In this document: piece after piece, positions 3,437 to 20,652 of the stretch
How the letters are laid out: each line of letters starts with the position of its first letter
How positions within the stretch are numbered: the first letter of the stretch is position 1
Origin: Methanospirillaceae archaeon
Lineage (GTDB): Archaea > Halobacteriota > Methanomicrobia > Methanomicrobiales > Methanospirillaceae
Assembly (NCBI GenBank): GCA_016926505.1
Contig: JAFGOM010000050.1
Coordinates: 1 to 50,784 of the forward strand
DNA length: 50,784 nucleotides
Direction: 5' to 3'
Notes under the pieces: generated by a model
Told to the model about the DNA's origin: nothing
Seen by the model: only the letters and a program-made list of their open reading frames with translations
Databases searched by the model: none
Position numbers and translations under genes: made by a program

Positions 3437-4324
3437 TTGAAGATAATAATTTTTGGAACCACCGGTATGCTCGGTCATAAATTAATACAGAATCTCTCTC
3501 AAAGACATGATGTTACAGGAACCACGCGCAAAGATCTATCAGAGTATGCCAATTATCCGGTATTTTCTGGAGTAAAAATCCTGAACAATATTGATGCAGC
3601 TGACTTTACATCAATCAATAATGCGATTGAAAAAGTAAATCCAGATGTCATTATAAACTGCATAGGCATTGTAAAACAACTTCCACAGGCACAGGATCCA
3701 TTACCCTCAATTACCATAAACTCACTCTTTCCCCATCAGCTCGCTCAGGTATGTAATAAAAAAGGTATTCGGCTGATCCATTACAGCACAGACTGTGTTT
3801 TTTCCGGGAAAGATGGTAATTATAAAGAGACTGATATCCCGGATCCAGAAGACCTCTATGGCAGATCAAAATTACTTGGAGAGGTAACACAAGGGAGATG
3901 TTTAACACTTCGTACCTCACTTATTGGGAGAGAACTTTCCGGATTTCGTAGCCTTTTTGAATGGGTTTTACAACAGGATGGTAAAGAGATTCATGGATAT
4001 ACAAAAGCAATCTTTAGTGGCCTGACAACTAATGCTCATGCACAAATTCTTGATGATATTCTCACCAGAAAAAAAAATCTCACCGGACTTTATCATGTGG
4101 CTTCTACGCCAATATCAAAGTTCGATCTCATCAGTATGATAATTAATCGTTTCAATCTTAATATCACCATCATTGCAGATGATTCTGTTGTCTGTAACCG
4201 GAGTCTTGATGGTTCCCGGTTCATAAAAGATACTGGTATCTCTATTCCGTCCTGGGAAATGATGATAGAACAGTTGTATATCGATAAAACGCCCTATAAT
4301 AACCACAGATATGTTCACAAATAA
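3437..4324 (+). CDS. RmlD-like SDR reductase of UDP-L-deoxyhexosamine synthesis
   Basis: This 295-residue protein of the dTDP-4-dehydrorhamnose reductase type has a Rossmann motif GTTGMLG at 7-13, STDCVFSG at 117-124, and Tyr141-xxx-Lys145 in LYGRSK. The start is TTG, supported by GGGGGT 7 nt upstream. The next two genes encode a CapE/WbjB-type 4,6-dehydratase/5-epimerase and a CapG/WbjD-type 2-epimerase, so this is the reductase of that trio. It is a plain RmlD-like protein without the cupin extension of CapF. That resembles WbvR of the UDP-L-QuiNAc/L-RhaNAc pathway more than CapF of the L-FucNAc pathway. It overlaps the next gene by 14 nt. G+C is clearly higher here than in the first 3.4 kb. 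Confidence 0.8.
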   Translation: MKIIIFGTTGMLGHKLIQNLSQRHDVTGTTRKDLSEYANYPVFSGVKILNNIDAADFTSINNAIEKVNPDVIINCIGIVKQLPQAQDPLPSITINSLFPHQLAQVCNKKGIRLIHYSTDCVFSGKDGNYKETDIPDPEDLYGRSKLLGEVTQGRCLTLRTSLIGRELSGFRSLFEWVLQQDGKEIHGYTKAIFSGLTTNAHAQILDDILTRKKNLTGLYHVASTPISKFDLISMIINRFNLNITIIADDSVVCNRSLDGSRFIKDTGISIPSWEMMIEQLYIDKTPYNNHRYVHK

Positions 4325-5369
4325 AACCATCTTAATAACAGGCGGCACCGGATCTCTCGGGAAAGTCCTCATAAAACGCCTGCTATCAGAAGATTGTGGC
4401 CTTCCGAAGAAGATCATAGTCTTTTCCCGTGATGAAGCCAAGCAACATGCAATCCGAATTGAATACCTTAATAAAAAAGCCTCAACCGACGAGGTCATCT
4501 TTAACAACTTTAAAAGACTCCTAGAGTTCAGAATTGGTGATATTAGGGATTTTGAATCAGTCGCCCGTACAGTCCGTGGTGTTGATGTTGTCTTTAACGC
4601 AGCGGCATTAAAACAGGTTCCCAGTTGTGAATACTTCCCTGCAGAAGCCGTCAGAACAAATACATTGGGACCTGAAAATATTATCAAGGCGATACGTCTT
4701 TTTGATCTCCCGGTTGAGACGGTGGTGGGAATTTCTACAGATAAAGCCTGTAAACCCGTTAATGTGATGGGTATGACCAAAGCAATCCAGGAGAGAGTGT
4801 TTATTGCTGCAAATATTGAATGCCCCCGGACACGGTTTATCTGTGTGCGATATGGCAATGTCCTCGCATCGCGGGGATCAGTAATCCCTCTCTTTCATGA
4901 CCAGATAAAAACCGGCGGCCCGGTAACCATCACCACATCAGATATGACCCGATTCCTCTTAAGCCTCAATGATGCAGTTGACACCATCTTTGCGGCTGTT
5001 AAAGATGCCCTCCCTGGTGAAACCTATATTCCTATTGCAAAATCTGCTCATGTTATGGATATTGCACACTGTCTGATTGGAGAAAGACCTATAAAGCTGC
5101 AGGAGATCGGTATTCGGCCCGGTGAAAAGATACATGAGATTTTGATATCTGATGAAGAAGCATACCGGACAGAGAAACGAGGGGACTATTACGTCATAAA
5201 GCCGATGCTTCCTGAGCTTAATCCGGATTACTCTTATGGAAAAACACTATCAAAGGAGTTTAGTTCTGCAGATAGGTGTATGAACAAAGAAGAAGTGCTG
5301 CAGTATCTCACGATGCACCAGTTATTGATTGAACAATGTGATTGTAATGGGATTGAGATGCTGAGATGA
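4311..5369 (+). CDS. UDP-GlcNAc inverting 4,6-dehydratase/5-epimerase (CapE/FnlA/WbjB type)
   Basis: The 352-residue cytoplasmic SDR has GGTGSLG at 11-17 and GISTDKACKPVN at 140-151, followed by Met153-xxx-Lys157. Met replaces the usual catalytic tyrosine. The altered Ser-Met-Lys triad is a known marker of CapE/WbjB enzymes, which convert UDP-GlcNAc to a 4-keto-6-deoxy sugar and epimerise C5 and C3. Its place between an RmlD-like reductase and a non-hydrolysing 2-epimerase supports this. It overlaps both neighbours (14 and 4 nt). A 247-aa open frame antisense to the end of the preceding gene and the first half of this one is a shadow. Confidence 0.9.
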   Translation: MFTNKTILITGGTGSLGKVLIKRLLSEDCGLPKKIIVFSRDEAKQHAIRIEYLNKKASTDEVIFNNFKRLLEFRIGDIRDFESVARTVRGVDVVFNAAALKQVPSCEYFPAEAVRTNTLGPENIIKAIRLFDLPVETVVGISTDKACKPVNVMGMTKAIQERVFIAANIECPRTRFICVRYGNVLASRGSVIPLFHDQIKTGGPVTITTSDMTRFLLSLNDAVDTIFAAVKDALPGETYIPIAKSAHVMDIAHCLIGERPIKLQEIGIRPGEKIHEILISDEEAYRTEKRGDYYVIKPMLPELNPDYSYGKTLSKEFSSADRCMNKEEVLQYLTMHQLLIEQCDCNGIEMLR

Positions 5370-6439
5370 AGATTATCACAGTCCTTGGAACACGGCCGGA
5401 GATAATCAGGTTAAGCAGAATAATACCTCTACTGGATACGTTCTGCACTCACATCCTGGTCCATACAGGTCAGAATTTCAATAAAAGCCTCAGTGATATT
5501 TTTTTTGAAGAACTAAAGATACGAAATCCCGACTATCATATTGGAGTCAGGGCTGATTCTGCAGGTGAACAGATAGGAAATATTCTCTGTGGTTGCGAGA
5601 AAATTTTTCAGTCTGAAAAACCAGATAAAATACTCATCCTGGGAGATACTAACAGTGCACTTTGTGCATTCATTGCAAAAAGAATGGGAATTCCTGTGTA
5701 TCATATGGAGGCAGGAAACCGGTGCTTTGATGATAGGGTGCCTGAAGAGGTAAACCGGCGGATAATTGATCACTCGAGTGATATATTATTACCCTACACT
5801 GAGAGAAGCCGGATGAATCTCCTTTTAGAAGGGATAGAATCCCGGAGAATTTTGGTTACCGGCAATCCGATACATGAGGTTATTACCTATTATGATCCCG
5901 AAATTTCCTGTTCACAGGTAATCAAAAATGTAAACCTAAAAGAGCATGGCTATTTCCTTGTGACAATGCATCGGTCTGAAAATGTTGATAATCCTGATCG
6001 ATTGCAGAACCTTCTTCTTTCTTTAAATCTGATCTGGGAGAAATATAATCTTCCTGTTATCGTGAGTACCCATCCGCACACTCGTGAGAGAATGAACCGG
6101 ATATCGGGAAGTAATCATTCAAAAATTGAATTTTTAGAACCGTTTGGATTTTTTGATTTTTTAGCCCTTGAAAAACATGCATTTGTTGTCATCAGTGACA
6201 GCGGAACAGTTCAGGAAGAATGTGCATTATTAGGGATTCCTAATGTAACAATCAGGGATACTACGGAACGGCCTGAAACTCTTGAAAGAGGATTAAATAT
6301 CTTATCTGGTACCAACCCGGAAAGTATTTTGAGATGTATTGAGATCGTTACATCTAATCCCGGCAACGGTACGGTTCCAGAAGAATATGTATTTCCGAGT
6401 GTCAGTTCGACTGTTGGAAAAATTATCCTTGGGATTTGA
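5366..6439 (+). CDS. wecB: non-hydrolysing UDP-N-acetylglucosamine 2-epimerase (WecB/CapG family)
   Basis: The 357-residue protein shows the WecB family layout: VLGTRPEIIRL at 6-16, TGQNF at 34-38, GDTNSAL with Asp94, EAGNRCFDDRVPEEVNRR starting near 115, and TMHRSENVDN with His202. These correspond to the catalytic acids and histidine of bacterial 2-epimerases. The NRCFD variant is typical of the CapG/WbjD subgroup, which acts on the product of the CapE-like and reductase steps. It is translationally coupled to the preceding gene by ATGA. It probably completes a UDP-activated N-acetyl-6-deoxy-L-hexosamine. Confidence 0.9.
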   Translation: MKIITVLGTRPEIIRLSRIIPLLDTFCTHILVHTGQNFNKSLSDIFFEELKIRNPDYHIGVRADSAGEQIGNILCGCEKIFQSEKPDKILILGDTNSALCAFIAKRMGIPVYHMEAGNRCFDDRVPEEVNRRIIDHSSDILLPYTERSRMNLLLEGIESRRILVTGNPIHEVITYYDPEISCSQVIKNVNLKEHGYFLVTMHRSENVDNPDRLQNLLLSLNLIWEKYNLPVIVSTHPHTRERMNRISGSNHSKIEFLEPFGFFDFLALEKHAFVVISDSGTVQEECALLGIPNVTIRDTTERPETLERGLNILSGTNPESILRCIEIVTSNPGNGTVPEEYVFPSVSSTVGKIILGI

Positions 6440-7448: not shown

Positions 7449-8756
7449 TTAGTGTTCTATCACCCTTTTCCATCGTTCGACACGTTGCTTTACATCCTCA
7501 TCAGTAAAAAAATCTTGTTCATAGAGATCCATTAATTCTGACTGATGGTTTCGATAATTATCTATCAAGGCTCTGAAATGATAAAAAATTGTAACCATAA
7601 TTGATAGGATTGAATTCCCGATTGGCATTTTACAAAATACTTTTGGAATCGGATATCCTTTTTTTTTCAAATGAGAGATGATGGTAACAATGCCAAAAAT
7701 AGGATTACCTTTACTCATCATTTCAGTTTCTGCCCAACACTCAAGAGATTTAAAAGAACCAGAAGGTGTATCCGAAATAAAGGTTTTAAATTCGTCAAAA
7801 CCGGTTAATTTAGAAACCATTTCATACCATATTGCCTCAATATAGTGGGGAAAAGGAATTGGAGCCAGCATAGCAATTGGTTTTTCTGCTATTGCAGCCT
7901 CGATAAGGGTTGTACTATATGAGGAGATAACGATGTCACTTGCTAAAATCCATTCTCTAACTGTTTTTTCTTTTATTATTTTTAAATTAGCAGGTAGATC
8001 CTGATTCACCTCTGAGAAAAATTTCTTCATCTTATCTAAAGATACCGCAGGTCGAGGACGAAAGATTATCTCGATATCTTCTCTTTTCAGGATATCAATA
8101 CACCATTGAATAACTATTTTGAGAGAGTGAGATGCAAATTCGGTATACCTGTAAATTTCATCTGGATCAATACCATAATTTATCTTCTCTTTTATTTTTG
8201 TTTCCGAATAAAATGCAGCTGCATAATTTTCAGGAATAAAAACCCACTTTTTGTGAGGGTTTAAATTAAATTGTTCTGCAAGATCTATTCTGGATGGAAA
8301 ATAATCGCGATATTTTTTATTATAGAGTGCATAACTTAAATTTCCATTCAATATGATATTATCCTGTTTGACCCCATAATTCATAAGATAATTAGAGAAA
8401 TGGTTGCTCCAGGAGTGATGAAGCACATAATTTTGCGCAAATATATCTTTTGGGGCTTTTAATTCTACATTAATATTCTGAAATATTTGTTCATATGCAA
8501 GGTTCAAAATGGTAACATCAAAGCAACCAGAAATTATTGATTTATAAATCCCAAGGGAAAAACAATAAGGAAATACAAGGATTTTAACATTCTTCTTATT
8601 TAATTTAAACTTTTTTCTGTAGGGCAATGAAACAATCGTTACTGTAGTGTTTAATTGTTCCAGGTAATATTTTATTAGACATGCAATATCCAATTCACGG
8701 GCCACATGTTCAATAAATAGTATCACATCAGAATTATGTGTCTTCATTATTACCAT
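7449..8756 (-). CDS. surface carbohydrate biosynthesis protein, GT-B-like glycosyltransferase
   Basis: The 435-residue protein resembles the surface-carbohydrate biosynthesis family related to polysialyltransferase and glycerophosphotransferase GT-B folds. The central IIFRPRPAV (230-238) and SDIVISSYSTTLIEAAIAE (273-291) look like phosphate/nucleotide-binding segments of the C-terminal Rossmann half. It is the last gene of the - strand operon containing neuB- and neuA-like genes and overlaps the transketolase gene by 23 nt. It is a good candidate for the transferase that uses the CMP-activated product. An alternative ATG lies at 8747. Family membership is recognised by pattern, not by search. 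Confidence 0.6.
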   Translation of the reverse strand: MVIMKTHNSDVILFIEHVARELDIACLIKYYLEQLNTTVTIVSLPYRKKFKLNKKNVKILVFPYCFSLGIYKSIISGCFDVTILNLAYEQIFQNINVELKAPKDIFAQNYVLHHSWSNHFSNYLMNYGVKQDNIILNGNLSYALYNKKYRDYFPSRIDLAEQFNLNPHKKWVFIPENYAAAFYSETKIKEKINYGIDPDEIYRYTEFASHSLKIVIQWCIDILKREDIEIIFRPRPAVSLDKMKKFFSEVNQDLPANLKIIKEKTVREWILASDIVISSYSTTLIEAAIAEKPIAMLAPIPFPHYIEAIWYEMVSKLTGFDEFKTFISDTPSGSFKSLECWAETEMMSKGNPIFGIVTIISHLKKKGYPIPKVFCKMPIGNSILSIMVTIFYHFRALIDNYRNHQSELMDLYEQDFFTDEDVKQRVERWKRVIEH

Positions 8757-10671
8757 CTGATTTTGTAAGAATTTTATCTGCTATTGAATTTCCATTTAAT
8801 CCGTGATATTGCAGAACCTCCCAGGGTCTCCCCCAGGCAGGTAATCCTATAATGCCTAATAACTCTACGTTTCTGCCGTAGAAAGCGGGTATTTTTATTA
8901 GATGATACATAAGTGTATCGAAAAGACCTCCAAATAACACATGATCTTCCAGAATAAAAATATTCTTTATCTCTCCAATGACCGATTGAAGCCAGGATTG
9001 ATTAACAACATTTAACCATGGCATGTTTACAACCTTCAAAGAAAGGTCTTTTTTTGCTAATAATTCAGCTGCAATAAGTGATTCATGGAGCATTACTGGT
9101 CCATATGCAAAAATAATTGCATCAGAGCCCTCATTAATAACTGTACCTGATCCCTTCGATAATGAATAATCAGAAGGTAAATTTATTACTCGTGGTGATG
9201 GTCCAATTACAAGGCGTATCATACAATTATTTTTGGTTTGATTAATGCAGTAATTAACGATCTCTTTTGTTTCTTCTGCATTACATGGTTGTAAAATTTC
9301 CATGTTCGGCATTGCCCCAAAAAGTGAAATGTCCCGAATACTCTGATGAGATTGACCAGGGCCTGCAGGTAATAATCCAGCATAATGACATGCATAGATA
9401 ATCTTTGTTTTCTCGCAGCAATTGTTATATATCTGTTCATTAGCCCTTGATGAAAGAAAAGCAGCAAAAGAATGAACTATTGGGAGAAGACCCTGAAGTG
9501 CAAGACCCCCTGCCATGGAAACCATATCCTGCTCCGCAATCCCGTTTTCAATAAACTGGGAAGGTAAAATCTGTTCAAATGTACGTATATGACAATCTGC
9601 AGCCAAATCAGCATCAAGAACAATGATGTCTTTCCTTTTCCGGGCTATCTCTAAAAGAGCTTTTCCATATGCATCTGAAATATATTCTTCAGAAATCGAT
9701 GCAGATGGTTTGCATTCTGGTGCTATGGTTTCAAGCTTTAGTGAATCTAAACCAAAAATTGCAAGTTGATTGTTAATTTTTTGTCTCAACTCTGAAAGGG
9801 CAGATTGATATGATGTATCATCCGGGGCCCCTGAATGCCAGCGATATAATCCCTCTCCAGCCTGAAGTGCAGCAGGGTGTTCCATAAAAGAAATTCCTTT
9901 CCCCTTTATTGTATCTGCAATAATTACTTTGGGTTTATCAATAATTTTATCAAAGGAACGCAAAACACCTTCGAAGTCGGTAAAGTTATGACCGTTACAT
10001 CTGGCAGTGTGCCATCCAAAAGTCTGAAACTTTAATTCAAGGTCTCCGAGATCACTTACATCACAGACCTGTTTATCTGTCTGAACCTTATTATGATCAA
10101 TAATCACGATAATATTTGACAATTTTTGATTGACAGCGGTGAGAAGGGCTTCATAATTTTGTCCTTCCTGAAGTTCACCATCTCCAAGCATTACAAAAAT
10201 ACGCCCTTTCTTGTTGTTGTATCGTTTAGCAAAAGCCATACCTTTTGCTTTAGAAATACCCATACCCAATGAACCAGAATTTGCTTCAACACAAGGTGTA
10301 CCAATATCTGGATGACCACAAGTCCCCTTAATCCTTCTCAGGAGGATAAATTGATCTTTTGGTAAAAGTCCTAGTGAATATAATACTGCGTAATATCCTG
10401 GAACATCATGTCCTTTCGATGAAAAATAAATATCACGATCTGGATTATTCTTCTCATGTGAAATCCCTTTCAATTCAGAATAGTACAACATTGTTACAAT
10501 GTCAATTGAGCTCAATGAAGAACCCAGATGGCCGGATCCTGCTTTTTTTATTGACGATAGGGCATTTACTCTACACATGTCTGCTACAAGAGAGAGGCGA
10601 TTCTCCCTTGACAATGATGATGACCAAATACGAACAAATTCTGTTTGAGAAATAATACTTATATCAACCAT
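8734..10671 (-). CDS. transketolase-type thiamine-diphosphate enzyme, full length
   Basis: The 645-residue single-chain transketolase has the N-terminal TPP domain with GSGHLGSSLS (45-54), SKGHD (85-89), GDGELQEGQNYEA (163-175) and Asn194. The pyrimidine domain contains the catalytic glutamate in ENGIAEQDM (Glu380), followed by a C-terminal domain. AGGTG lies just upstream of the ATG. Archaea often split transketolase into two genes; this one is fused. It sits inside a nonulosonic-acid-type operon, so a role in supplying or rearranging a sugar precursor (ketol transfer) is likely rather than central pentose metabolism. The real substrate is unknown. Confidence 0.88.
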   Translation of the reverse strand: MVDISIISQTEFVRIWSSSLSRENRLSLVADMCRVNALSSIKKAGSGHLGSSLSSIDIVTMLYYSELKGISHEKNNPDRDIYFSSKGHDVPGYYAVLYSLGLLPKDQFILLRRIKGTCGHPDIGTPCVEANSGSLGMGISKAKGMAFAKRYNNKKGRIFVMLGDGELQEGQNYEALLTAVNQKLSNIIVIIDHNKVQTDKQVCDVSDLGDLELKFQTFGWHTARCNGHNFTDFEGVLRSFDKIIDKPKVIIADTIKGKGISFMEHPAALQAGEGLYRWHSGAPDDTSYQSALSELRQKINNQLAIFGLDSLKLETIAPECKPSASISEEYISDAYGKALLEIARKRKDIIVLDADLAADCHIRTFEQILPSQFIENGIAEQDMVSMAGGLALQGLLPIVHSFAAFLSSRANEQIYNNCCEKTKIIYACHYAGLLPAGPGQSHQSIRDISLFGAMPNMEILQPCNAEETKEIVNYCINQTKNNCMIRLVIGPSPRVINLPSDYSLSKGSGTVINEGSDAIIFAYGPVMLHESLIAAELLAKKDLSLKVVNMPWLNVVNQSWLQSVIGEIKNIFILEDHVLFGGLFDTLMYHLIKIPAFYGRNVELLGIIGLPAWGRPWEVLQYHGLNGNSIADKILTKSDGNNEDT

Positions 10672-10774
10672 AAAACACCTAATTAAACATTCTTTATAAC
10701 TAAATCAATAATGAGAAATAAATCCATTGTCAGGGAGAATCGATAGTGGTAAAAGATTAATCATAATCATAATA

Positions 10775-11521
10775 TTATTGCTGATTGTAAGGGATTTGTG
10801 TGATAGATGGCAGAATTGCTTGTTTCGTACGAATGAGTTCTTCAGCCACCTGCCAGTCATAGGGATAATTGATGTCAAATCCTTCTAAACCCTCAGTGAA
10901 AAAGGGAACAATCATTTCTCCTGAAATTGTTCCTTTTTCAATAGCAACTTTTGTCCAGGCTATCTCAAGACTTGCATTCTGAATATAAATATCTGGCAGT
11001 GATTGCGTTGGACTACTATGCCATGGTTGTTTTTCAGATCCAAATGGTAAGAGTGGATACATTTTCTTCCCCCGTACAATCCACATTTTTCCAGGATGTT
11101 GTGTGCATTTTTCTATAGCTCTTAATGAATCCAGATATACTTCAGATGTAAATTCTTTCCAGGCCCTTTGAATCGTGTGCGGCATCCGAAACGGACTTGT
11201 TGGGCGGAGTATGCTGAAACAATCAAAACTCATCCCAATTTCTGTAAGTTTAATTAGGGTATAACGAACCCAGTCAATATCTGGTGACAAATCCTGAGAA
11301 TATTCATCAGGACGAAGAAATGGGACATCTGCCCCATAATATCGAGCAATATCGGCATATCCTAATGAATTCGTCGAAACAATGACTGAAGCAAATATTC
11401 CACTGTCTAATGCAGCTTGAATGGTATATGCTATCAGGGGATGATCCAAAAGAGGAGAAATGTTTTTATCATGAATACGCTTTGATCCGGAACGGGCAGG
11501 TATTAATGCCACAATATCCAT
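10775..11521 (-). CDS. neuA: CMP-nonulosonate (CMP-sialic acid-like) cytidylyltransferase
   Basis: This is a cytidylyltransferase of the NeuA/KdsB superfamily, 248 residues from the chosen ATG. The N-terminal ALIPARSGSKRI (5-16) is the CTP-binding signature and SILRPTSPFR corresponds to the LQPTSPxR motif of CMP-NeuAc synthetases. I chose the ATG at 11521 because GGAG lies 7 nt upstream; a longer frame begins with TTG at 11542. It should activate the keto-sugar acid made by the NeuB-like enzyme to its CMP form. Genes for SDR, ALDH, phosphatase and synthase lie upstream in the same direction. Confidence 0.82.
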   Translation of the reverse strand: MDIVALIPARSGSKRIHDKNISPLLDHPLIAYTIQAALDSGIFASVIVSTNSLGYADIARYYGADVPFLRPDEYSQDLSPDIDWVRYTLIKLTEIGMSFDCFSILRPTSPFRMPHTIQRAWKEFTSEVYLDSLRAIEKCTQHPGKMWIVRGKKMYPLLPFGSEKQPWHSSPTQSLPDIYIQNASLEIAWTKVAIEKGTISGEMIVPFFTEGLEGFDINYPYDWQVAEELIRTKQAILPSITQIPYNQQ

Positions 11522-11575
11522 AATTTTGCTCCAATTCTCCAATCCTAAAATTTCTATTATATGTGTATAATTAAC

Positions 11576-13060
11576 TCACAATTGATTTTCATCAACAAAT
11601 AAGTAAATATCTTTTAATTCTGAATAGACATCGAGAGCTTCAGTGCCTGGTTCTCTTGTTCCATTCCCGGATTCTTTAAATCCACCAAAAGGCATGTGAG
11701 GTTCGCTCCCATATGTACCTCCATTTACAACAGCAACTCCTGATTGGATTTTCTGAGAAAATTCTATTGCACGGTTAACATTTTTTGTGTGAATGCAACT
11801 GGTAAGCCCATATTGAGAATTATTTGCAAGGTGAAGAGCTTCTGCAAAATCTTTGACCCGGTATAAGCAAGCAATTGGTCCAAATATCTCTTTGAGTGAT
11901 ATTTCATCATTAGGGTGAACATTATCAATAAGAGTAGGGGCCATATAATATCCAGATGCATGATCAACATCAGATAATCTGTATCCTCCAGTAATAATTC
12001 TCCCCCCGGATTCTTTTGCCCTATTGACGATATTAAGCATATTCTGCAGTTGTTTTTCATTTATTACAGGTCCAAAATCATCGGTATCAAAAATTCCAAC
12101 CTTTAATTTATCGGTCTTTTCTTTTAATTTCTCAACGACTTTTTCATATATTGTATCAAAAATTATAATGCGACTTGCTGAAGCACAGCGCTGTCCGGCA
12201 TTGCTAAAGGCAGACAGAAGGATCCATTTTACTGCGTTATCTTGGTCTGCATCATCACAAACAACTAGTGGGTTTTTACCGCCGAGTTCAAGAGAAACGC
12301 GTGCAAGTCTTTCTGCACAGATAATATTAATCTCCTTTCCAACTGATGTAGATCCGGTGAAACTAATGATGTCAATATCTGGATGCTTTACGATCTCATT
12401 TCCTACCTCTCTGCCATGCCCTTGAATAATATTAAAAAGACCTGATGGTAAGCCGATATCATGAGCGATTTTACCCATAAACCATGCAGTTATTGGGGCA
12501 TCCTGTGCAGCTTTAAGAATCACTGCATTTCCGCAAATAAGTGCAGGGAATAGTTTCCATGCGATGTTAGCAATTGGTGTATTTGCTGATACAATAAGTC
12601 CTGCTAATCCTATCGGTTGCCTGATAGTCATTGCATACTTGTTACCAACACCACTGGTACATGTTCTCCCATATAACCGTTGACCTTCTCCTGCAAAAAA
12701 GTGAGCAAGTAAAATGGCACCATCTGTCTCTCCTCGTGCATCTTTAAGAGATTTCCCTGTTTCCAAATGAACAATATGAGCAATTTCTTCGCGATGTCTT
12801 TTCATTTCTGATGCAAAAGAAAACAAGAGATTGCCACGCTGAACAGCTGGCATTAAGGCCCATGACATTTGTGCACTTTTTGCAGCTGTAACGGCAAATG
12901 AGACATCAGAATAATCAGATGCGGTGATATTGCATAACACTTCTTGATTAGCAGGGTTCTTTTTTATGATTACTCTTCCCTTTTTATTTGTTATCTCTTT
13001 CCCATCAATCCAGTTCGGGATTGTTGGTGGAAATAAACAACTCATATCAAGATTTACCAT
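11576..13060 (-). CDS. NAD(P)-dependent aldehyde dehydrogenase
   Basis: The aldehyde dehydrogenase superfamily protein has about 494 residues. Seen: the Asn of SANTPIAN, Lys in AVILKAAQDAP, the FTGSTSVG cofactor loop, catalytic Glu in ELGGKNP (258 in this numbering) and nucleophilic Cys in AGQRCASASR (292). I chose the ATG at 13060 because GGAGG lies 9 nt upstream; another ATG at 13069 directly abuts that GGAGG. It overlaps the SDR stop by 7 nt. It would oxidise an aldehyde to a carboxylate in the sugar pathway. An ALDH is not part of the standard sialic, legionaminic or pseudaminic acid routes. Confidence 0.87.
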   Translation of the reverse strand: MVNLDMSCLFPPTIPNWIDGKEITNKKGRVIIKKNPANQEVLCNITASDYSDVSFAVTAAKSAQMSWALMPAVQRGNLLFSFASEMKRHREEIAHIVHLETGKSLKDARGETDGAILLAHFFAGEGQRLYGRTCTSGVGNKYAMTIRQPIGLAGLIVSANTPIANIAWKLFPALICGNAVILKAAQDAPITAWFMGKIAHDIGLPSGLFNIIQGHGREVGNEIVKHPDIDIISFTGSTSVGKEINIICAERLARVSLELGGKNPLVVCDDADQDNAVKWILLSAFSNAGQRCASASRIIIFDTIYEKVVEKLKEKTDKLKVGIFDTDDFGPVINEKQLQNMLNIVNRAKESGGRIITGGYRLSDVDHASGYYMAPTLIDNVHPNDEISLKEIFGPIACLYRVKDFAEALHLANNSQYGLTSCIHTKNVNRAIEFSQKIQSGVAVVNGGTYGSEPHMPFGGFKESGNGTREPGTEALDVYSELKDIYLFVDENQL

Positions 13061-13872
13061 GCTGTCCATCCTCCATCAATAACCAAATTCGATCCAGTCA
13101 TATATGATGAGGCATCAGATAAGAGAAACTGAATTGCCCCATTGTATTCATCTTCATATGCCATTCTCCCCAGAGGTACCCGTACATAATATTCTTTAAG
13201 AAATTCTTCATCCTGATTATTGTAAACACCACCAAAAGTAAGTGTATTTACCCGTACGTTATTATCAGCCCAGTATGTCGCCAGATATCTGGTAAGATTA
13301 AGAAGTGCAGATTTTGAGACGGAATAAGAAACAGGCTTGAAAAATGGGGTCTCTTTATTTTTTCGATATTCGTAAACACGTTGATCTGGGGAGACAATTC
13401 CATAGATCGAACTAATATTTATAATGGAGCCACGATTATTTGTCGCCATTTCCCCTCCAATTATCTGGCAACATAACACAACGCCTTTCACATTTACTTC
13501 CATGATGCGTTCAAAAGATGATTCAGGATATTGTTCAAACGGACCGTTTTCGGTTAGTGATGTTTTAGGAGGAGAATCAATCGCAGCGTTATTGACTAAT
13601 CCAAAAGGTACTCCCCACTGTTTTATTACCTTACGTAACCCCGTTTCAATTGATTCACGGTTGGTAATGTCAACAACAACCGGTAGTACCATACCTTTTG
13701 AGAAATATGTCTGAAAACTCTCTTGGAATATGGTGTTTTCAATATGTATGTCAAAAATCGCAACTTTTGCTCCGGCTTCACATAAAGAACTGGTAAATTG
13801 GCGACCAAGTTGACCCATCCCTCCGGTAATGACAATCACCCGATCTTTTACGTCAAAGAGGTTTCTATTCAT
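13054..13872 (-). CDS. short-chain dehydrogenase/reductase (PtmA-like)
   Basis: The classical 272-residue SDR has TGGMGQLG at 16-23, the NNAA motif at 94-97, Ser154 and Tyr183-xxx-Lys187 (SYSVSK). An insertion around 100-118 and another at 162-180 set it apart from simple fatty-acid-type SDRs. Similar SDRs (for example PtmA) occur in legionaminic-acid-like flagellar or capsule clusters. GGTG lies 5 nt before the ATG. It is placed between the HAD phosphatase and the ALDH in one tight operon. The reaction is unassigned; oxidation or reduction of a sugar or sugar acid is likely. Confidence 0.8.
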   Translation of the reverse strand: MNRNLFDVKDRVIVITGGMGQLGRQFTSSLCEAGAKVAIFDIHIENTIFQESFQTYFSKGMVLPVVVDITNRESIETGLRKVIKQWGVPFGLVNNAAIDSPPKTSLTENGPFEQYPESSFERIMEVNVKGVVLCCQIIGGEMATNNRGSIINISSIYGIVSPDQRVYEYRKNKETPFFKPVSYSVSKSALLNLTRYLATYWADNNVRVNTLTFGGVYNNQDEEFLKEYYVRVPLGRMAYEDEYNGAIQFLLSDASSYMTGSNLVIDGGWTAW

Positions 13873-13890
13873 TTTTGCACCAATACTACA

Positions 13891-14409
13891 TTATTTATTG
13901 GTTTGAATTTTCGATATCATGTCACATATTTCACGGACTGCCCCTGTTCCCCCTGGACGGGAAGTAATATATGAAGCATATGGGAAGACATCTGGGTGTG
14001 CATCACATACAACAATAGGGATTTCTACATGTAAAAGACAAGGGATGTCCCGGATATCATTACCAACATATGCAACATACTTCATGGTTATATTTTTTTC
14101 TTTAATAATATCTTGCAGAACGGTAAGTTTGTCATCACATCCATTATAGCAGGGTATTTTTAATTTTCTGCACCTTGCAATAACAACTGGGTTTTTTTCT
14201 GCTGATATAACGGCCATTTCAATTCCAAGATCACGTAACTTCTGAAGGCCTTCGCCATCAAACCGACTGCTTTTCACTGCCTCTTTTCCATCTTCAAATG
14301 TGTATACCATATTGTCGGTAAATACCCCATCAAAATCAAAAGCAATAAATCGTATGTTTTTTATTGCCTCTTTTAATGCAGGAGTAATGACTCCCATCCA
14401 TTGGACCAT
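13891..14409 (-). CDS. KdsC-like HAD phosphatase (nonulosonate-9-P or Kdo-8-P phosphatase type)
   Basis: The 172-residue cap-less C0 HAD phosphatase has DFDGVFTD at 25-32 (nucleophile Asp25), Ser69 of motif II, Lys94 of motif III and GNDIRDIPC (116-124) carrying the motif IV acids. Length and sequence match the KdsC family, which dephosphorylates keto-deoxy sugar acids after synthase action. It starts 7 nt downstream of the NeuB stop with GAGG 5 nt before the ATG. Its presence suggests that the synthase uses a phosphorylated substrate. Confidence 0.85.
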   Translation of the reverse strand: MVQWMGVITPALKEAIKNIRFIAFDFDGVFTDNMVYTFEDGKEAVKSSRFDGEGLQKLRDLGIEMAVISAEKNPVVIARCRKLKIPCYNGCDDKLTVLQDIIKEKNITMKYVAYVGNDIRDIPCLLHVEIPIVVCDAHPDVFPYASYITSRPGGTGAVREICDMISKIQTNK

Positions 14410-14416
14410 AATTGCC

Positions 14417-15472
14417 TCATTTAGTTAAAATATCCCTTGAAATTGGATCATCCTCTGAGAGTGGCTTTTTTGTAACCATTCCAATAATATTATTAAACTC
14501 ATAGGGAGGTAAACCGATATTAATAGGTGATTTTATCGCAATATCTAAAACAGTTAATTGATGTCCTTTTGGAATATCGCGGGATGCAACAAGTTGTTTT
14601 CCCATTTTAATCAAAGGATTTATCTCACCTGGAATCGGTTTTTTAACCCCGTCACCAATGGCATACATTGCACGTTTCAGGTCACGACAGAGTTTTGACA
14701 TCCCTATTGGTTCGAGTGAAAATGAGTGATCTGACCCTTTCCAACTATGATTTAAGGTAAAATGCTTCTCAAAAACTCTGGCTTTTAGCATATAGGCTAC
14801 CAATGCCATTGATATCCCATTCTGATGATCAGACAGACCAATAACGACATCTGGGAACTTTTCACGGAACGTTGTAATCACTTTCAGGTTCATGTCTTCT
14901 GGTTCAACCGGGTAACAGGCAGTACATTGAAGAATACAAAAATTTCGGTTCCATGGACGGATTGTATCATAGGCACGCTGGACATCCTCAAGGGTCCCAC
15001 CCCCTGTACTGAGGATAATCGGTTTCCCGGTTTTGGCTATATATGCAATAAGGGGAGTATTCTTCAGGTCTCCAGATGCAATTTTATATCCATGAATTCC
15101 AATATCCTCAAGGAAATCAACACTGGGAATATCAAAAGCGGTGCAAAAGAACGAGAGTCCTAATTCATCTGCGAAATTCTTCAATTCAATATATTCATCT
15201 GTATCAAATTCAAGAAATTCACGATGTTCGCCATACGTCGCGCCAAAACTGTTCTCGTTATCATAAGGTGAATTGTACAGCTCTTTTGTATAGAGTAGTT
15301 TATTCGTTCGTTTCTGAAGTTTAACTGCATTGACTCCACATTGTTTTGCAGATAAAAACATCTTTTTACATGTTTCAATATTTCCCTGATGGTTATGTCC
15401 GATTTCTGCGATAACATAACTTCTTGGGTCGTCAGTTATGATATCTTTTCCGATTCTAAATTCTCTGGTCAT
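14417..15472 (-). CDS. neuB: NeuB-family sialic acid/nonulosonic acid synthase with SAF domain
   Basis: The TIM-barrel PEP-dependent synthase (about 1-280) is followed by an antifreeze-like SAF domain (about 291-351); it has 351 residues from the ATG at 15472. That ATG has GAGG 9 nt upstream; a longer frame starts with TTG at 15514. Visible landmarks are IAEIGHNHQG (21-30), KLQKRTNKLLY (51-61), STGGGTLED, EKHFTLNHSWKGSDHS (235-250) and ASRDIPKGHQLT. In the SAF domain the usual Lys-Arg-Pro of NeuB reads Lys-Ser-Pro (near 314-316), so the arginine that contacts the N-acetyl group in NeuB is missing. The acceptor may therefore differ from an N-acetylhexosamine. It is the first gene of the - strand operon. 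Confidence 0.85.
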   Translation of the reverse strand: MTREFRIGKDIITDDPRSYVIAEIGHNHQGNIETCKKMFLSAKQCGVNAVKLQKRTNKLLYTKELYNSPYDNENSFGATYGEHREFLEFDTDEYIELKNFADELGLSFFCTAFDIPSVDFLEDIGIHGYKIASGDLKNTPLIAYIAKTGKPIILSTGGGTLEDVQRAYDTIRPWNRNFCILQCTACYPVEPEDMNLKVITTFREKFPDVVIGLSDHQNGISMALVAYMLKARVFEKHFTLNHSWKGSDHSFSLEPIGMSKLCRDLKRAMYAIGDGVKKPIPGEINPLIKMGKQLVASRDIPKGHQLTVLDIAIKSPINIGLPPYEFNNIIGMVTKKPLSEDDPISRDILTK

Positions 15473-15954: not shown

Positions 15955-17469
15955 TTAATCGTTTTGGTGTTGAAATATTAAATTTTTTACTTTCATAAAT
16001 TGAACTGCTTTATTATTCCTAAAAATATACCATTTCAATGCTTGATAGAGGAATCTCTTTAAAGAAATCCAAAAGATGTCAGAAGAAAAAATATTCGAAG
16101 TAAAAAATCGATTTAGAAGAAAATTTTTTTCCATTGACATATGTGCCCAAATAAAAAGACGCTCCATATCTTTATCAGACAATCCCGAAACATTCAATAT
16201 GATTCTTCCGATTTCATTCATGTTATATTTGGCAAGTTTTAACAAATATTCTTCCTCATCAGGAATAAGGCCTATTTCTTGAGTTTTAGTATATAATTCA
16301 GATCCAGGGAGTGGCGTTGCCCAAGACATGTGACGAGGAGGAAAAGAGGATTGTTTCATCATGTCAATTGTATCCTGCAAAGTATTTTTAGTTTCACCCG
16401 GATAACCTGCCATTAACTGAATTTTTAAATGGAACCCGATTTTTCCAGCAATTTTTAGTATGTAAAGATTTTGCTCTCGGGTTACCCCTTTATTCATTGC
16501 CATTAAAAGTGAATTGCTTCCAGATTCAAACCCAAAACCTATCGAATAACAATTTGACGCTTTCATGATGTGCATTAGTTCTTCATCGACAGTATTCACC
16601 CTTGCTTGACAATCCCAATAAACATTTAGATCTTTAATTTTCTCACAAAAATCAATGGTTTTATTTCTATTAAAGACTACTAACTCATCATAAAAATGAA
16701 TTGCTTTTACCCCATATTCTTTTTGAAAAAATTTGATCTCTTCAATCACGTGGTTTACAGATTTAAATCGTACAGTCTGATAACTTCTTGAACAAAAAGA
16801 ACATTTATATGGGCATCCTCTCCCAAAAAATAATGAAAAATTTGGATGTAATCTTGAATATTCCGGTAGCATTTTATTATATTCAGAATAACGGGTTGTT
16901 GAATCATCTGCCCATAAGTTTCCTCGTAAATATATGTCCATATTCCAAAGGGAGAAATTAGGAAGAGGTAATGAATCTAAATCTTTGATTAATTCTCGAG
17001 ATGGATTCACAATTATATCCGGGTTTTTATATGCAATCCCATTAACATTCTTAAAGTTTTCCCAATTTCGAAAGAGATCGACGGATGTTAGTTCACCTTC
17101 TCCAAGAATACAAATGTCAATTGTGGGTTTTGATAATAACAGATTATAGTGAAGATCCGCAACAATTCCTCCAATAATAATTGGAATATTTTTATTCGTT
17201 TTAATCAGTTCCGCAATCCAAATTATGTATGCATAATTATATGAAGCAAATCCCGATATACAGACACAATCGTGATCAATCCTTTTAATAAATGATTCAA
17301 CTTCTTCTCGAACTAAATCATCTCCATAAATATCTAATAATTCAATTATATGACCATCATTTTCGAGATATTTCATTACTGTAGCAACACCCCAAGGGAA
17401 ATATCTTCGGGTTGCCGGACTTTTCACTCTTCCCTCACCTAAAGGGGGATATATAAATAAAATTTTCAT
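15955..17469 (-). CDS. B12-binding-domain radical SAM protein
   Basis: The 504-residue protein has an N-terminal cobalamin-binding-like Rossmann domain (about 1-140, with IIGGIVADLHYNLLL and LGEGE at 122-126). The radical SAM core carries CxxxCxxC at Cys219, Cys223 and Cys226 in RGCPYKCSFCSRSY. The layout matches class B radical SAM enzymes that methylate or rearrange sugars, lipids or other metabolites. It lies between the nonulosonate operon and the polysaccharide exporter genes, so glycan modification is plausible but unproven. The ATG is followed by the typical MKILFIYPPLGEG opening. Confidence 0.85.
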   Translation of the reverse strand: MKILFIYPPLGEGRVKSPATRRYFPWGVATVMKYLENDGHIIELLDIYGDDLVREEVESFIKRIDHDCVCISGFASYNYAYIIWIAELIKTNKNIPIIIGGIVADLHYNLLLSKPTIDICILGEGELTSVDLFRNWENFKNVNGIAYKNPDIIVNPSRELIKDLDSLPLPNFSLWNMDIYLRGNLWADDSTTRYSEYNKMLPEYSRLHPNFSLFFGRGCPYKCSFCSRSYQTVRFKSVNHVIEEIKFFQKEYGVKAIHFYDELVVFNRNKTIDFCEKIKDLNVYWDCQARVNTVDEELMHIMKASNCYSIGFGFESGSNSLLMAMNKGVTREQNLYILKIAGKIGFHLKIQLMAGYPGETKNTLQDTIDMMKQSSFPPRHMSWATPLPGSELYTKTQEIGLIPDEEEYLLKLAKYNMNEIGRIILNVSGLSDKDMERLFIWAHMSMEKNFLLNRFFTSNIFSSDIFWISLKRFLYQALKWYIFRNNKAVQFMKVKNLIFQHQND

Positions 17470-17649: not shown

Positions 17650-18552
17650 CTATCTAACAAAAATATAATTGCTTATAGTGCCATCACCATGGGGGTAAAT
17701 ATTTTTAATTATAAAATCGTTGCTCTGTAATAAATTAATTAAATTTAAGTGATCAGGATCACTCTTATCGATCTCTACCAAAATAGATTTAAGTTCAGGC
17801 GATTTTAATATGCTGCCACAACCCCTAATTACAGCAAGCTCATGTCCGTCAACATCAATTTTTATATGATTTGGTTTTTGAAGGTTAAATATCTCAATTA
17901 GATCATCTAATCTATATGATGCGATAAAAGAATAGAATTGAGAATTATCCTCAAAACTTTTTTGTAGTTTTTGCTTAGTGGGCCTTTTAATTTCTTTGTT
18001 AACTGAATGACTAGCATCGCCAGGAGATAAACTGGAATAAAAAAATTTACCAATTTTTGTATGATCTGTAATAATATATGGGAATGCAATAATTTTGTCA
18101 TTATAATTATTTATTAGGATATTTTCACATAATGCAGAATATGTTGAGAAACTTGGTTCAAAAGAATATATTTGACATTGTCCTTTATTGTGCTCATAAC
18201 ATACAAAAGAATAGACTCCAACATTAGCTCCAATGTCATATAACACATGATTTGGCTTAATATATTCTTCTATCCATTTGACAGTTTCAGGTTCTTTTTT
18301 ACAACTTTTTGTTCGATATAATTGATTTGTAGATTTAATATTCATCTGAATATTTGCGTTTTTATAATCAAGGCTCTTATGAAATTTTACCTTCTCTATA
18401 ATAAAAATTATTAATAAAAAAGATAACGTTTGGAAAATATCTATTAGCGATGCAATCTTCATTTTTTTTAAAACTAATTTAATTCTCTGCATTTTATATA
18501 TTTTGTTTAATAAATTTTGAATTAATAGATTTTTTTTCATTTTAGTCGCCAT
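17650..18552 (-). CDS. FkbM-family SAM-dependent methyltransferase
   Basis: The 300-residue protein has a basic, hydrophobic N-terminus (a probable membrane-near helix at about 35-55). The methyltransferase domain contains LYDIGANVGVYSF (104-116), the FEPS acid of motif II (131-134), and HIKIDVDGHELAVIRG, which is typical of FkbM proteins. It should O-methylate a sugar hydroxyl, perhaps capping the exported polysaccharide. It overlaps the Wzt-like ATPase gene by 11 nt; a second ATG at 18540 would leave almost no overlap. Such a methyltransferase beside a Wzt with a C-terminal domain recalls non-reducing-end capping systems. Confidence 0.83.
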   Translation of the reverse strand: MATKMKKNLLIQNLLNKIYKMQRIKLVLKKMKIASLIDIFQTLSFLLIIFIIEKVKFHKSLDYKNANIQMNIKSTNQLYRTKSCKKEPETVKWIEEYIKPNHVLYDIGANVGVYSFVCYEHNKGQCQIYSFEPSFSTYSALCENILINNYNDKIIAFPYIITDHTKIGKFFYSSLSPGDASHSVNKEIKRPTKQKLQKSFEDNSQFYSFIASYRLDDLIEIFNLQKPNHIKIDVDGHELAVIRGCGSILKSPELKSILVEIDKSDPDHLNLINLLQSNDFIIKNIYPHGDGTISNYIFVR

Positions 18553-19819
18553 TGATGTATTTAGTTATCCAAGGCAATTTAGGTTGTAAGATTCCATCCA
18601 TCGTTTGAACATAATCTCCTCGCGCAGAATTGCCGGTCATTTTATCATAAGTCTGAAATATTATTGCATTTTCAACATGACAAAAGCGAATTTTTGCTCC
18701 TGCTGATGAAAAAACAGAAATATTGATTGCATAATTCCTCTCGGAAAAAATATTTTTGTATATTGTAACTTCAGAATAGTATAGACCATTATGCTTTCTG
18801 ACAGATTCAGTTGGTTCAACAGAAATGAATGCACATGTCGCCCCACAATAAAATAAAATGGCAATTCTAAATTTTAAATTAGGAATCAGAGTTTTATACC
18901 CTATTCGAACAATTACTGGTTTTTCAATATCTACCAATTTTATTGGACTTCTATTTTCATTTAGGATTTCAACAGATATCAGCTTAAATCCATTTATTCC
19001 GGGTGCAGTATCGATATCTTTCCATTCTGTTTTACCATATGTCCCAAGAGACGTGTTTAGATAATGTGATACTACTTCATCTGAAGTACCATCTTCCAAT
19101 AATTCACCCTTATCAATTAGAATAACTCGTTTACACATTGTAGTTATTGCAGACATATTATGGCTTACAAAGAGCACCGTTCTCCCTTCCTTTGCAACCT
19201 CTCCCATTTTTCCAAGACATTTCTTTTGAAATCCCGCATCTCCTACTGCAAGTACTTCATCAACTAATAAAATCTCTGGATCTAAATGTGCAGCAACTGC
19301 AAATCCAAGTCTTACTGCCATCCCACTAGAATAACGTTTGACAGGGGTGTCTAAAAATTCTTCTACACCGGCAAATTTGGTAATTTCATCAAATTTATCT
19401 TCGATTTCACGACGAGTCATCCCAAGGATAGATCCATTAAAATATATATTCTCTCTTCCGGTTAGTTCAGGATGAAATCCGGTTCCTACCTCAAGTAGAC
19501 TTCCTACTCGCCCATATAATTCAATTTCTCCACCAGTAGGATACGTTATGCCAGAAAGGATCTTTAATAATGTTGATTTTCCTGCACCATTCCGACCGAT
19601 GATTCCAATAACCTCTCCTGGATATACATCAAATGACACATCCCGGAGTGCAAAAAATGTTTCTTGAGTACAGGTCCGGGAAGAAAGCCATTTTCGGGGA
19701 TGAAGTACTGAATCAGTGATTGATTCAGTCAGACGTTTATACTTTTCTTGAGGGCCACCTATTTGATATGATTTAGTGAGATTTCTTATCGAGATAATTG
19801 GATTTTTTTGAGTGCTCAT
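18542..19819 (-). CDS. wzt: polysaccharide ABC exporter ATPase (Wzt-like, with C-terminal domain)
   Basis: The 425-residue ATPase has Walker A GRNGAGKST at 75-83, signature YSSGM at 163-167 and Walker B LLVDE at 184-188. An N-terminal extension is typical of Wzt/TagH subfamily proteins. A C-terminal beta-rich domain (about 260-425) resembles the Wzt carbohydrate-binding domain that reads a terminal modification on the glycan. It overlaps the permease gene by 4 nt. With Wzm it exports a lipid-linked polysaccharide made by the surrounding genes. Confidence 0.92.
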   Translation of the reverse strand: MSTQKNPIISIRNLTKSYQIGGPQEKYKRLTESITDSVLHPRKWLSSRTCTQETFFALRDVSFDVYPGEVIGIIGRNGAGKSTLLKILSGITYPTGGEIELYGRVGSLLEVGTGFHPELTGRENIYFNGSILGMTRREIEDKFDEITKFAGVEEFLDTPVKRYSSGMAVRLGFAVAAHLDPEILLVDEVLAVGDAGFQKKCLGKMGEVAKEGRTVLFVSHNMSAITTMCKRVILIDKGELLEDGTSDEVVSHYLNTSLGTYGKTEWKDIDTAPGINGFKLISVEILNENRSPIKLVDIEKPVIVRIGYKTLIPNLKFRIAILFYCGATCAFISVEPTESVRKHNGLYYSEVTIYKNIFSERNYAINISVFSSAGAKIRFCHVENAIIFQTYDKMTGNSARGDYVQTMDGILQPKLPWITKYINGD

Positions 19820-20652
19820 ATTAAATCAGCAAAATAATGTTCAGTTTTTTTCAAATATACTACACCTATCACAAATATGAGAATACTAATTATAATGGCG
19901 ATAATAAGTCCAAAAAGATCAAATGAATCAAGGCCAAGCAAACAGGCACGGTGTGCATTGAGAAATCCTGTCATAGGGTTAAGATACAGAACCCATTGCA
20001 CATTTTGAGGAGCGATACTCACGGGATAAATAACAGGACAAATAAACATCGCTAATTGAATAAAGAAGGGAAGAGCAAATTGAACATCCCGATATTTTAC
20101 ACAGATTGATGAAAGGATGCATCCAAGACCGGTTGCACAAAGGATGGTACCTATGAGAACAATCGGTAAAATTAGTATCGTATAAGATGGTATAAAGCCG
20201 TAATACATCATCAGAATAAAAAGAACAATGAGTGAGATAAAATAATCAAATATTCCTGAAAGTGCAGGTGCAGAAGGGAAAAAAATACGAGGAAAATAGA
20301 CTTTTGTGAGCATCTGGGCATTATTTACCATGCTTGTTGATCCATGAGTTAAGGTACTGCTGAAATAAATCCAAAGAATAAGTCCCGCATAAGAGAATAG
20401 TGGGTATGGGATTCCATCAGATGGCATCTTTGCTAACTTACCAAAAAATAAAGTAAAAACTATCATTGAGAAAGATGGCTGGAGAATTGCCCATCCTGCC
20501 CCCATAATTGTCTGTTTATAGCGGATCTTTACTTCTCTCCATGCAAGATAAAATAATAACTCACGATAAAACCAGATCTCTGGAATGTTTAAATTAATCC
20601 CTTTCCCAGGCGGTCGAATTATTCGATGATATCTATTATCGCTATTACTCAT
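19816..20652 (-). CDS. wzm: polysaccharide ABC exporter permease (Wzm-like)
   Basis: The 278-residue ABC-2 type permease has about six hydrophobic segments. The N-terminal region contains FYRELLFYLAWREVKIRYKQT, a pattern conserved at the cytoplasmic gate helix of Wzm/TagG/KpsM permeases, and GAGWAILQPSFSM follows. It is the first gene of the wzm-wzt-fkbM unit. It marks the right edge of the AT-rich polysaccharide island; the divergent promoter region to the next gene is about 180 nt. Confidence 0.92.
   Translation of the reverse strand: MSNSDNRYHRIIRPPGKGINLNIPEIWFYRELLFYLAWREVKIRYKQTIMGAGWAILQPSFSMIVFTLFFGKLAKMPSDGIPYPLFSYAGLILWIYFSSTLTHGSTSMVNNAQMLTKVYFPRIFFPSAPALSGIFDYFISLIVLFILMMYYGFIPSYTILILPIVLIGTILCATGLGCILSSICVKYRDVQFALPFFIQLAMFICPVIYPVSIAPQNVQWVLYLNPMTGFLNAHRACLLGLDSFDLFGLIIAIIISILIFVIGVVYLKKTEHYFADLI

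Follow-up and report, generated by a model that had tools for sequence, protein, structure and literature searches.

The closest described systems differ in the sugar that they offer to the synthase. The CMP-Kdn pathway of Bacteroides thetaiotaomicron and Prymnesium parvum proceeds from mannose-6-phosphate to Kdn-9-phosphate, Kdn and CMP-Kdn without any epimerase; three enzymes suffice for it, namely the synthase, a KdsC-like phosphatase and a cytidylyltransferase (PMC6200933). The animal synthase NANS, which feeds the production of Neu5Ac, also uses a phosphorylated substrate, and the human enzyme accepts both ManNAc-6-phosphate and mannose-6-phosphate (PMC6795526). In contrast, Neisseria NeuB, LegI and PseI act on non-phosphorylated sugars. 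In Neisseria NeuB, Arg314 is the only residue of the SAF domain that reaches the active site; the R314A substitution abolishes activity while R314K retains it (PMC6795526).

We analyzed a window of 50,784 nucleotides from a Methanospirillaceae archaeon (contig JAFGOM010000050.1). As an earlier note had claimed, it contains a tight operon on the minus strand (7449-15472), made of seven intact open reading frames with short gaps or overlaps. The first gene (14417-15472, ATG start) encodes a NeuB-family ulosonate synthase with the Pfam domains NeuB (249 bits) and SAF (43 bits), which alignments and a tree place in the NANS-type branch; no other NeuB-family gene was detected in the genome. It is followed after 7 bp by a KdsC-type HAD phosphatase (13891-14409; TIGR01670, 116.8 bits for a cut-off of 106.95), whose relatives in the PDB are KdsC and the Kdn-9-phosphate phosphatase (3e81) and which we propose to be the ulosonate-9-phosphate phosphatase. 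It differs from the phosphatase of the CMP-Kdn pathway, since it reaches 92.5 bits against the Kdn-9-phosphate phosphatase equivalog NF058599 (cut-off 180) and is not assigned to it. After a further 18 bp comes an SDR oxidoreductase (13054-13872), PRK09186/PtmA-like according to family models, with orthologs at 61-65% identity in four of the loci discussed below (L033, L034, L099 and L100). Its gene overlaps that of an aldehyde dehydrogenase (ALDH) of the ALDH superfamily (11576-13069; Pfam Aldedh, 503 bits), related to ALDHs of the PDB. A NeuA-like CMP-ulosonate synthetase with CTP_transf_3 above cut-off (10775-11521, ATG start, a longer TTG frame reaching 11542) and a single-chain transketolase (8734-10671) with Transketolase_N, _pyr and _C all above cut-off come next. 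The latter gene overlaps the last one (7449-8747, ATG start, a longer frame reaching 8756), which encodes a TIGR04396/BFO_1060-like protein, a putative glycosyltransferase that stays below the cut-offs of these models with 96 and 75 bits. The labels previously given to the other six genes hold, while the assignment of this protein to the GT-B type was not confirmed: it has no Pfam match, and its AlphaFold model is poor (pLDDT 53). The gene at the same position in one Methylomirabilota locus (L034) scores 327 bits, above the TIGR04396 cut-off.

The gene content of this operon does not result from chance, because the same seven genes recur in a Methanoregulaceae genome (L032/L033) and in Methylomirabilota (L034 and L100), as the earlier note had proposed to look for. 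It is thus a real, conserved and non-canonical ulosonate operon, with transketolase and ALDH as true members. The closest match is found in the Methanoregulaceae archaeon UBA467 (L033, genome G219), where all seven genes are present but arranged divergently, in two groups placed around Wzm/Wzt and FkbM. In L034 and L100, the order NeuB-KdsC-SDR-ALDH-NeuA-TK-GT is identical to that of the operon, and on account of this identity the operon appears to be one mobile module. In another Methylomirabilota locus, L099, a mandelate-racemase-like enzyme, an ApbA-type reductase and a different NeuA lie between ALDH and transketolase. The operon looks horizontally acquired, since a close NeuB relative was present in only one other among 232 Methanomicrobia-level genomes searched. 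The composition of the glycan region (window 1-20652) is in keeping with this, its GC content being 0.33-0.37 vs 0.48 at 20831-50784. Our genome searches covered the phylum of the archaeon and Methylomirabilota, and the contig scan for the specific pattern yielded two loci, so that the distribution across bacteria is undersampled.

Several genes around the operon also deal with glycans. On the same strand, an FkbM-type methyltransferase (17650-18552), which adjoins the module in UBA467 and in phages too, is followed by Wzt (18542-19819) and Wzm (19816-20652), an ABC-type polysaccharide exporter also found beside the module in UBA467. The gene for a B12-binding radical-SAM-like protein (15955-17469), outside the conserved set, immediately precedes NeuB and is likewise on the minus strand. 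On the plus strand, an FnlA/B/C-like set of the UDP-L-FucNAc type (3437-6439) adjoins the operon and ends with a WecB/FnlC, UDP-GlcNAc 2-epimerase-like gene (5366-6439). In Methylomirabilota (L034:5215-9463, L099 and L100), the module lies directly downstream of genes for a fatty acyl-AMP ligase, an NAD epimerase-like protein and a serine palmitoyltransferase, the ligase and the palmitoyltransferase of L034 being above the cut-offs of their family models; these neighbors hint at a glycosylated sphingolipid.

Parts of the module are also carried by viruses and by a plasmid. Viral contigs scanned with a single protein gave no match and NeuB tblastn against annotated phages gave weak matches only, whereas an alignment query of the viral contigs retrieved many NeuB matches. 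In the viral contigs, NeuB belongs to the clade of the operon enzyme and comes with NeuA and usually with SDR and an FkbM methyltransferase. NeuB-SDR-NeuA(-TK)(-FkbM) cassettes occur in tailed-phage contigs (L038, L044, L045, L106, L121, L122 and others), and in L038, L045, L106 and L121 they lie between the genes for the terminase large subunit and the portal, as confirmed with PHROG. A scan of viral contigs with a transketolase profile retrieved L038 only. The phage transketolases of L038, L045, L121 and L122 are without the C domain, and in L044 only the start of the gene precedes the end of the contig. In a plasmid of Streptomyces NBC_01237 (L069), NeuB-SDR-TK, with a NeuB of this clade, is found in an NRPS cluster, in which tblastn gave no relatives of NeuA, KdsC or ALDH; this set could possibly provide a new NRPS building block. 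The NRPS itself comes with a hydroxyphenylglycine-like cassette, followed by an RraA-like aldolase, an RmlD-like reductase, a HAD protein and a lysine-6-transaminase. We had considered the transaminase and the aldolase as support for a terminal aldehyde and dropped them, the lysine-6-transaminase being above cut-off and possibly serving the NRPS product.

The synthase of the operon shares with Neisseria NeuB, LegI and PseI the TIM barrel and SAF architecture and the catalytic residues: E25, K53, Q55, K129, S132, Y186, S213, H215 and E234 are invariant in our alignment. On the other hand, it reads Lys-Ser-Pro instead of Lys-Arg-Pro in the SAF domain, as had been noticed earlier. The arginine is truly absent and not shifted, since the serine of IAIKSPIN aligns with Arg314 in the Neisseria motif VKRPGN; the loop that follows is one residue longer than in most bacterial forms. 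We gathered NeuB sequences from methanogens, the wider phylum, Methylomirabilota, viral contigs and the Streptomyces plasmid and built a tree from barrel columns only, the SAF columns being excluded. A single branch (ultrafast bootstrap 100, SH-aLRT 99) parts the rows with arginine from the 29 without, and the state at this position changes once on the tree vs 22 times in shuffles. The absence of the arginine marks a deep NeuB branch and is not a peculiarity of this protein. The non-Arg rows also have K56 (26/29), R57 (27/29), H82 (29/29) and R/K83 (29/29) in the Neisseria numbering, where the Arg branch has T, F, M and L/I, as well as K/R288; in the operon NeuB, a lysine takes the place of Phe288, which lines the Neisseria pocket.

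Human NANS is likewise without the arginine in its SAF domain (1wvo), where the spacing is kept. A presumed full sequence of human NANS matches the non-Arg rows best and has the QK and TYGEHK motifs in common with the operon NeuB, which we take as a lead only. Since human NANS uses ManNAc-6-phosphate without this arginine, its absence does not by itself imply a non-N-acetylated substrate. Together with the adjoining phosphatase, it rather indicates a phosphorylated route of the NANS type. Unlike NANS, the archaeal synthase sits in a prokaryotic operon with transketolase and ALDH.

The same data bear on the idea that the operon is of an ordinary legionaminic or pseudaminic type, with its early genes located in other parts of the genome and with a common product. 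The SDR is PtmA-like, although its PRK09186 score (177.8 bits) is below the cut-off of 255, and PtmA-like SDRs are found in legionaminate loci. The best model for NeuA is PseF (123.6 bits), again below its cut-off of 205.7. However, the LegI/PseI/NeuB-type relatives in our tree keep Arg314, as Neisseria NeuB does, and form a separate branch, no KdsC gene was seen beside them, and the legionaminic and pseudaminic routes use non-phosphorylated sugars that need no such phosphatase. Moreover, the operon NeuB, with Ser at 314, scores 269 bits for the N-acetylneuraminate synthase equivalog TIGR03569 (cut-off 399.65) and 219 bits for the pseudaminic acid synthase model TIGR03586 (cut-off 340). Scores, SAF residue and tree thus led us to reject this assignment, which we regard as very improbable.

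A KdsC-type gene adjoins NeuB in 6/12 non-Arg vs 0/42 Arg cellular loci, a count not corrected for phylogeny. Because the split occurred once, with a single independent pair on the tree and essentially one evolutionary event, this association is suggestive and not statistically independent. No adjacent KdsC was found at three KGP-type NeuB loci or at most phage loci. In a distant archaeon from another non-Arg subclade (L178), NeuA-NeuB-KdsC, the minimal gene set for a phosphorylated CMP-ulosonate route, is found beside a polysialyltransferase-family gene. In another methanogen (L180:14051-16656), three consecutive genes that read from the sequence as KdsA-, KdsC- and KdsB-like adjoin a NeuB cluster of the Arg type, which suggests that an archaeon makes Kdo-type sugars.

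What, then, would be the substrate of the synthase? The genome encodes a MannoseP_isomer domain (163.5 bits, in a 475-aa frame), a source of mannose-6-phosphate. A synthase with intact catalytic residues, an adjoining KdsC-type phosphatase, a cytidylyltransferase and this source are thus present, as in a phosphorylated nonulosonate pathway, and we consider such a route highly probable. As had been remarked, the operon is devoid of the epimerase, dehydratase and aminotransferase genes that serve the sialic, legionaminic and pseudaminic routes. This absence is not an anomaly, since the published CMP-Kdn route needs none of them (PMC6200933); a core leading from mannose-6-phosphate through Kdn-9-phosphate to Kdn would explain the missing epimerase. 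Given the isomerase domain and the lack of any NanE epimerase match above cut-off in the genome, we favor mannose-6-phosphate, and a non-acetylated substrate is somewhat likelier than an acetylated one. The non-N-acetylated substrate suspected at the outset is thus the likeliest, while the loss of the arginine, common to the whole branch and to NANS, cannot serve as its proof.

Alternatively, NeuB could make Neu5Ac-9-phosphate from ManNAc-6-phosphate, with SDR, transketolase and ALDH modifying an N-acetylated sugar, or with ALDH being incidental. The precedent of human NANS, which lacks the SAF arginine and uses ManNAc-6-phosphate (PMC6795526), speaks in favor of this, and ManNAc-6-phosphate could reach NeuB by a route that we did not recognize. 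Nevertheless, with no NanE above cut-off, neither a kinase nor an epimerase encoded in the operon and a lysine at the Phe288 position, we hold it to be unlikely.

Even if the core of the pathway follows the CMP-Kdn route, SDR, transketolase and ALDH are absent from the latter and are the part for which known routes do not account. The transketolase is the only one in this genome (2.9 Mb, 99.97% complete). It belongs to the superfamily by its three Pfam domains, its ThDP motif and its catalytic His, and remains below the cut-offs of the NCBIfam transketolase models. Its nearest solved relatives are human transketolase and the split transketolase of Carboxydothermus, and like them it has the complete set of N, Pyr and C domains as well as the ThDP/catalytic motifs. 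It keeps the counterparts of human H37, H77, H110, H258 and E366, whereas those of R318, S345, H416, D424 and R474 are replaced or missing; the catalytic and sugar-phosphate-binding roles of these residues are assumed from transketolase structures. The sugar-phosphate contacts are replaced in each member of the clade that covers them, with an Asp at the position of S345, while the Carboxydothermus protein retains the H, D and R contacts. Since these canonical contacts are changed or missing, a housekeeping or pentose phosphate role seems unlikely and was rejected; this transketolase, which unlike its human-type and split relatives adjoins NeuB, would be a dedicated enzyme.

Where could it act? 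One could assume that it works upstream, supplying an unusual aldose such as a tetrose or pentose phosphate, which NeuB would condense with PEP to a C7/C8 ulosonate before oxidation by SDR and ALDH; the methanogen would then need it for lack of any other transketolase. Its uniqueness in a nearly complete genome fits with this, and so does the fact that archaeal, bacterial and phage loci alike link its gene with NeuB. Yet the residues that should hold a sugar phosphate are replaced wherever members of the clade cover them, Streptomyces keeps this enzyme too, the Methylomirabilis genome of L034 keeps it despite other transketolase-domain proteins, and phages often carry NeuB-SDR-NeuA without it, indicating that NeuB does not need it. 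We thus judge both the supply of an aldose and the need for a sole transketolase improbable. That the enzyme acts after NeuB, on a sugar without terminal phosphate, has in our opinion a little less than an even chance. The Asp at the S345 position would not favor an anionic far end and does not look obviously suited to a sugar acid.

From what the analysis has shown, namely gene content and order, conservation, residue patterns, phylogeny and the absence of another transketolase, we infer substrate, product and order of reactions as follows. NeuB would form Kdn-9-phosphate by condensing PEP with a sugar 6-phosphate, for which mannose-6-phosphate is the likeliest candidate. K56, R57, H82 and R83 are its putative phosphate holders, and the arginine to which the N-acetyl group is bound in Neisseria NeuB is replaced. 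The KdsC-type phosphatase would remove the phosphate from the ulosonate-9-phosphate, and SDR, the dedicated transketolase, with its phosphate-binding residues lost, and ALDH would modify the free sugar acid. NeuA would then activate the tailored acid with CTP, and the glycosyltransferase-like protein would transfer it to a surface glycan, for which the neighboring Wzm/Wzt would be the exporter. The steps of NeuB, KdsC, NeuA and the glycosyltransferase are drawn from what is known of their families. For the explanation as a whole, a CMP-activated sialic-acid-like ulosonate made by a NANS/Kdn-type route, tailored and placed on a surface glycan, we see about even chances.

A more specific and rather doubtful proposal concerns the tailoring itself: in a reading that employs all three enzymes, the C9 acid would lose two carbons and end up as a C7 diacid. 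SDR would oxidize C8 of Kdn to an 8-ketone with a HOCH2-CO-CHOH end, transketolase would cleave off C8-C9 as a two-carbon unit, and ALDH would oxidize the new C7 aldehyde to 3-deoxy-hept-2-ulosaric acid, the skeleton of plant Dha. Transketolase requires the D-threo configuration in its substrate, and by our own derivation from Fischer projections, when Kdn is read from C9 its C7 and C6 would be D-threo as C3 and C4 of fructose are. Some phages carry the transketolase without ALDH, so that the former need not feed the latter.

In the literature searched, we found no description of a phosphorylated route combined with a transketolase and two oxidoreductases; nothing relevant came up for transketolase with NulO genes, and a search for heptulosaric acid returned mostly plant papers. 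The operon is a real and conserved variant of the phosphorylated nonulosonate pathway that moves horizontally. Its product is probably a sialic-acid-like sugar of the surface, derived from mannose-6-phosphate and remodeled by an altered transketolase and two oxidoreductases. SAF position 314, together with positions 56, 57, 82 and 83, separates a NeuB branch that looks specific for sugar phosphates, and the type of ulosonate could be predicted from such residues. A phosphorylated sialic-acid route of the animal type is thereby seen moving among archaea, bacteria and phages. If the transketolase indeed acts on an ulosonate, this role would be new for such an enzyme and might reveal a way in which C7 ulosaric acids such as plant Dha can arise, for which we know of no genetic route. 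Chain shortening, if true, would mean a transketolase working on a sialic-acid-like sugar, and would provide such a route for a C7 ulosaric acid.
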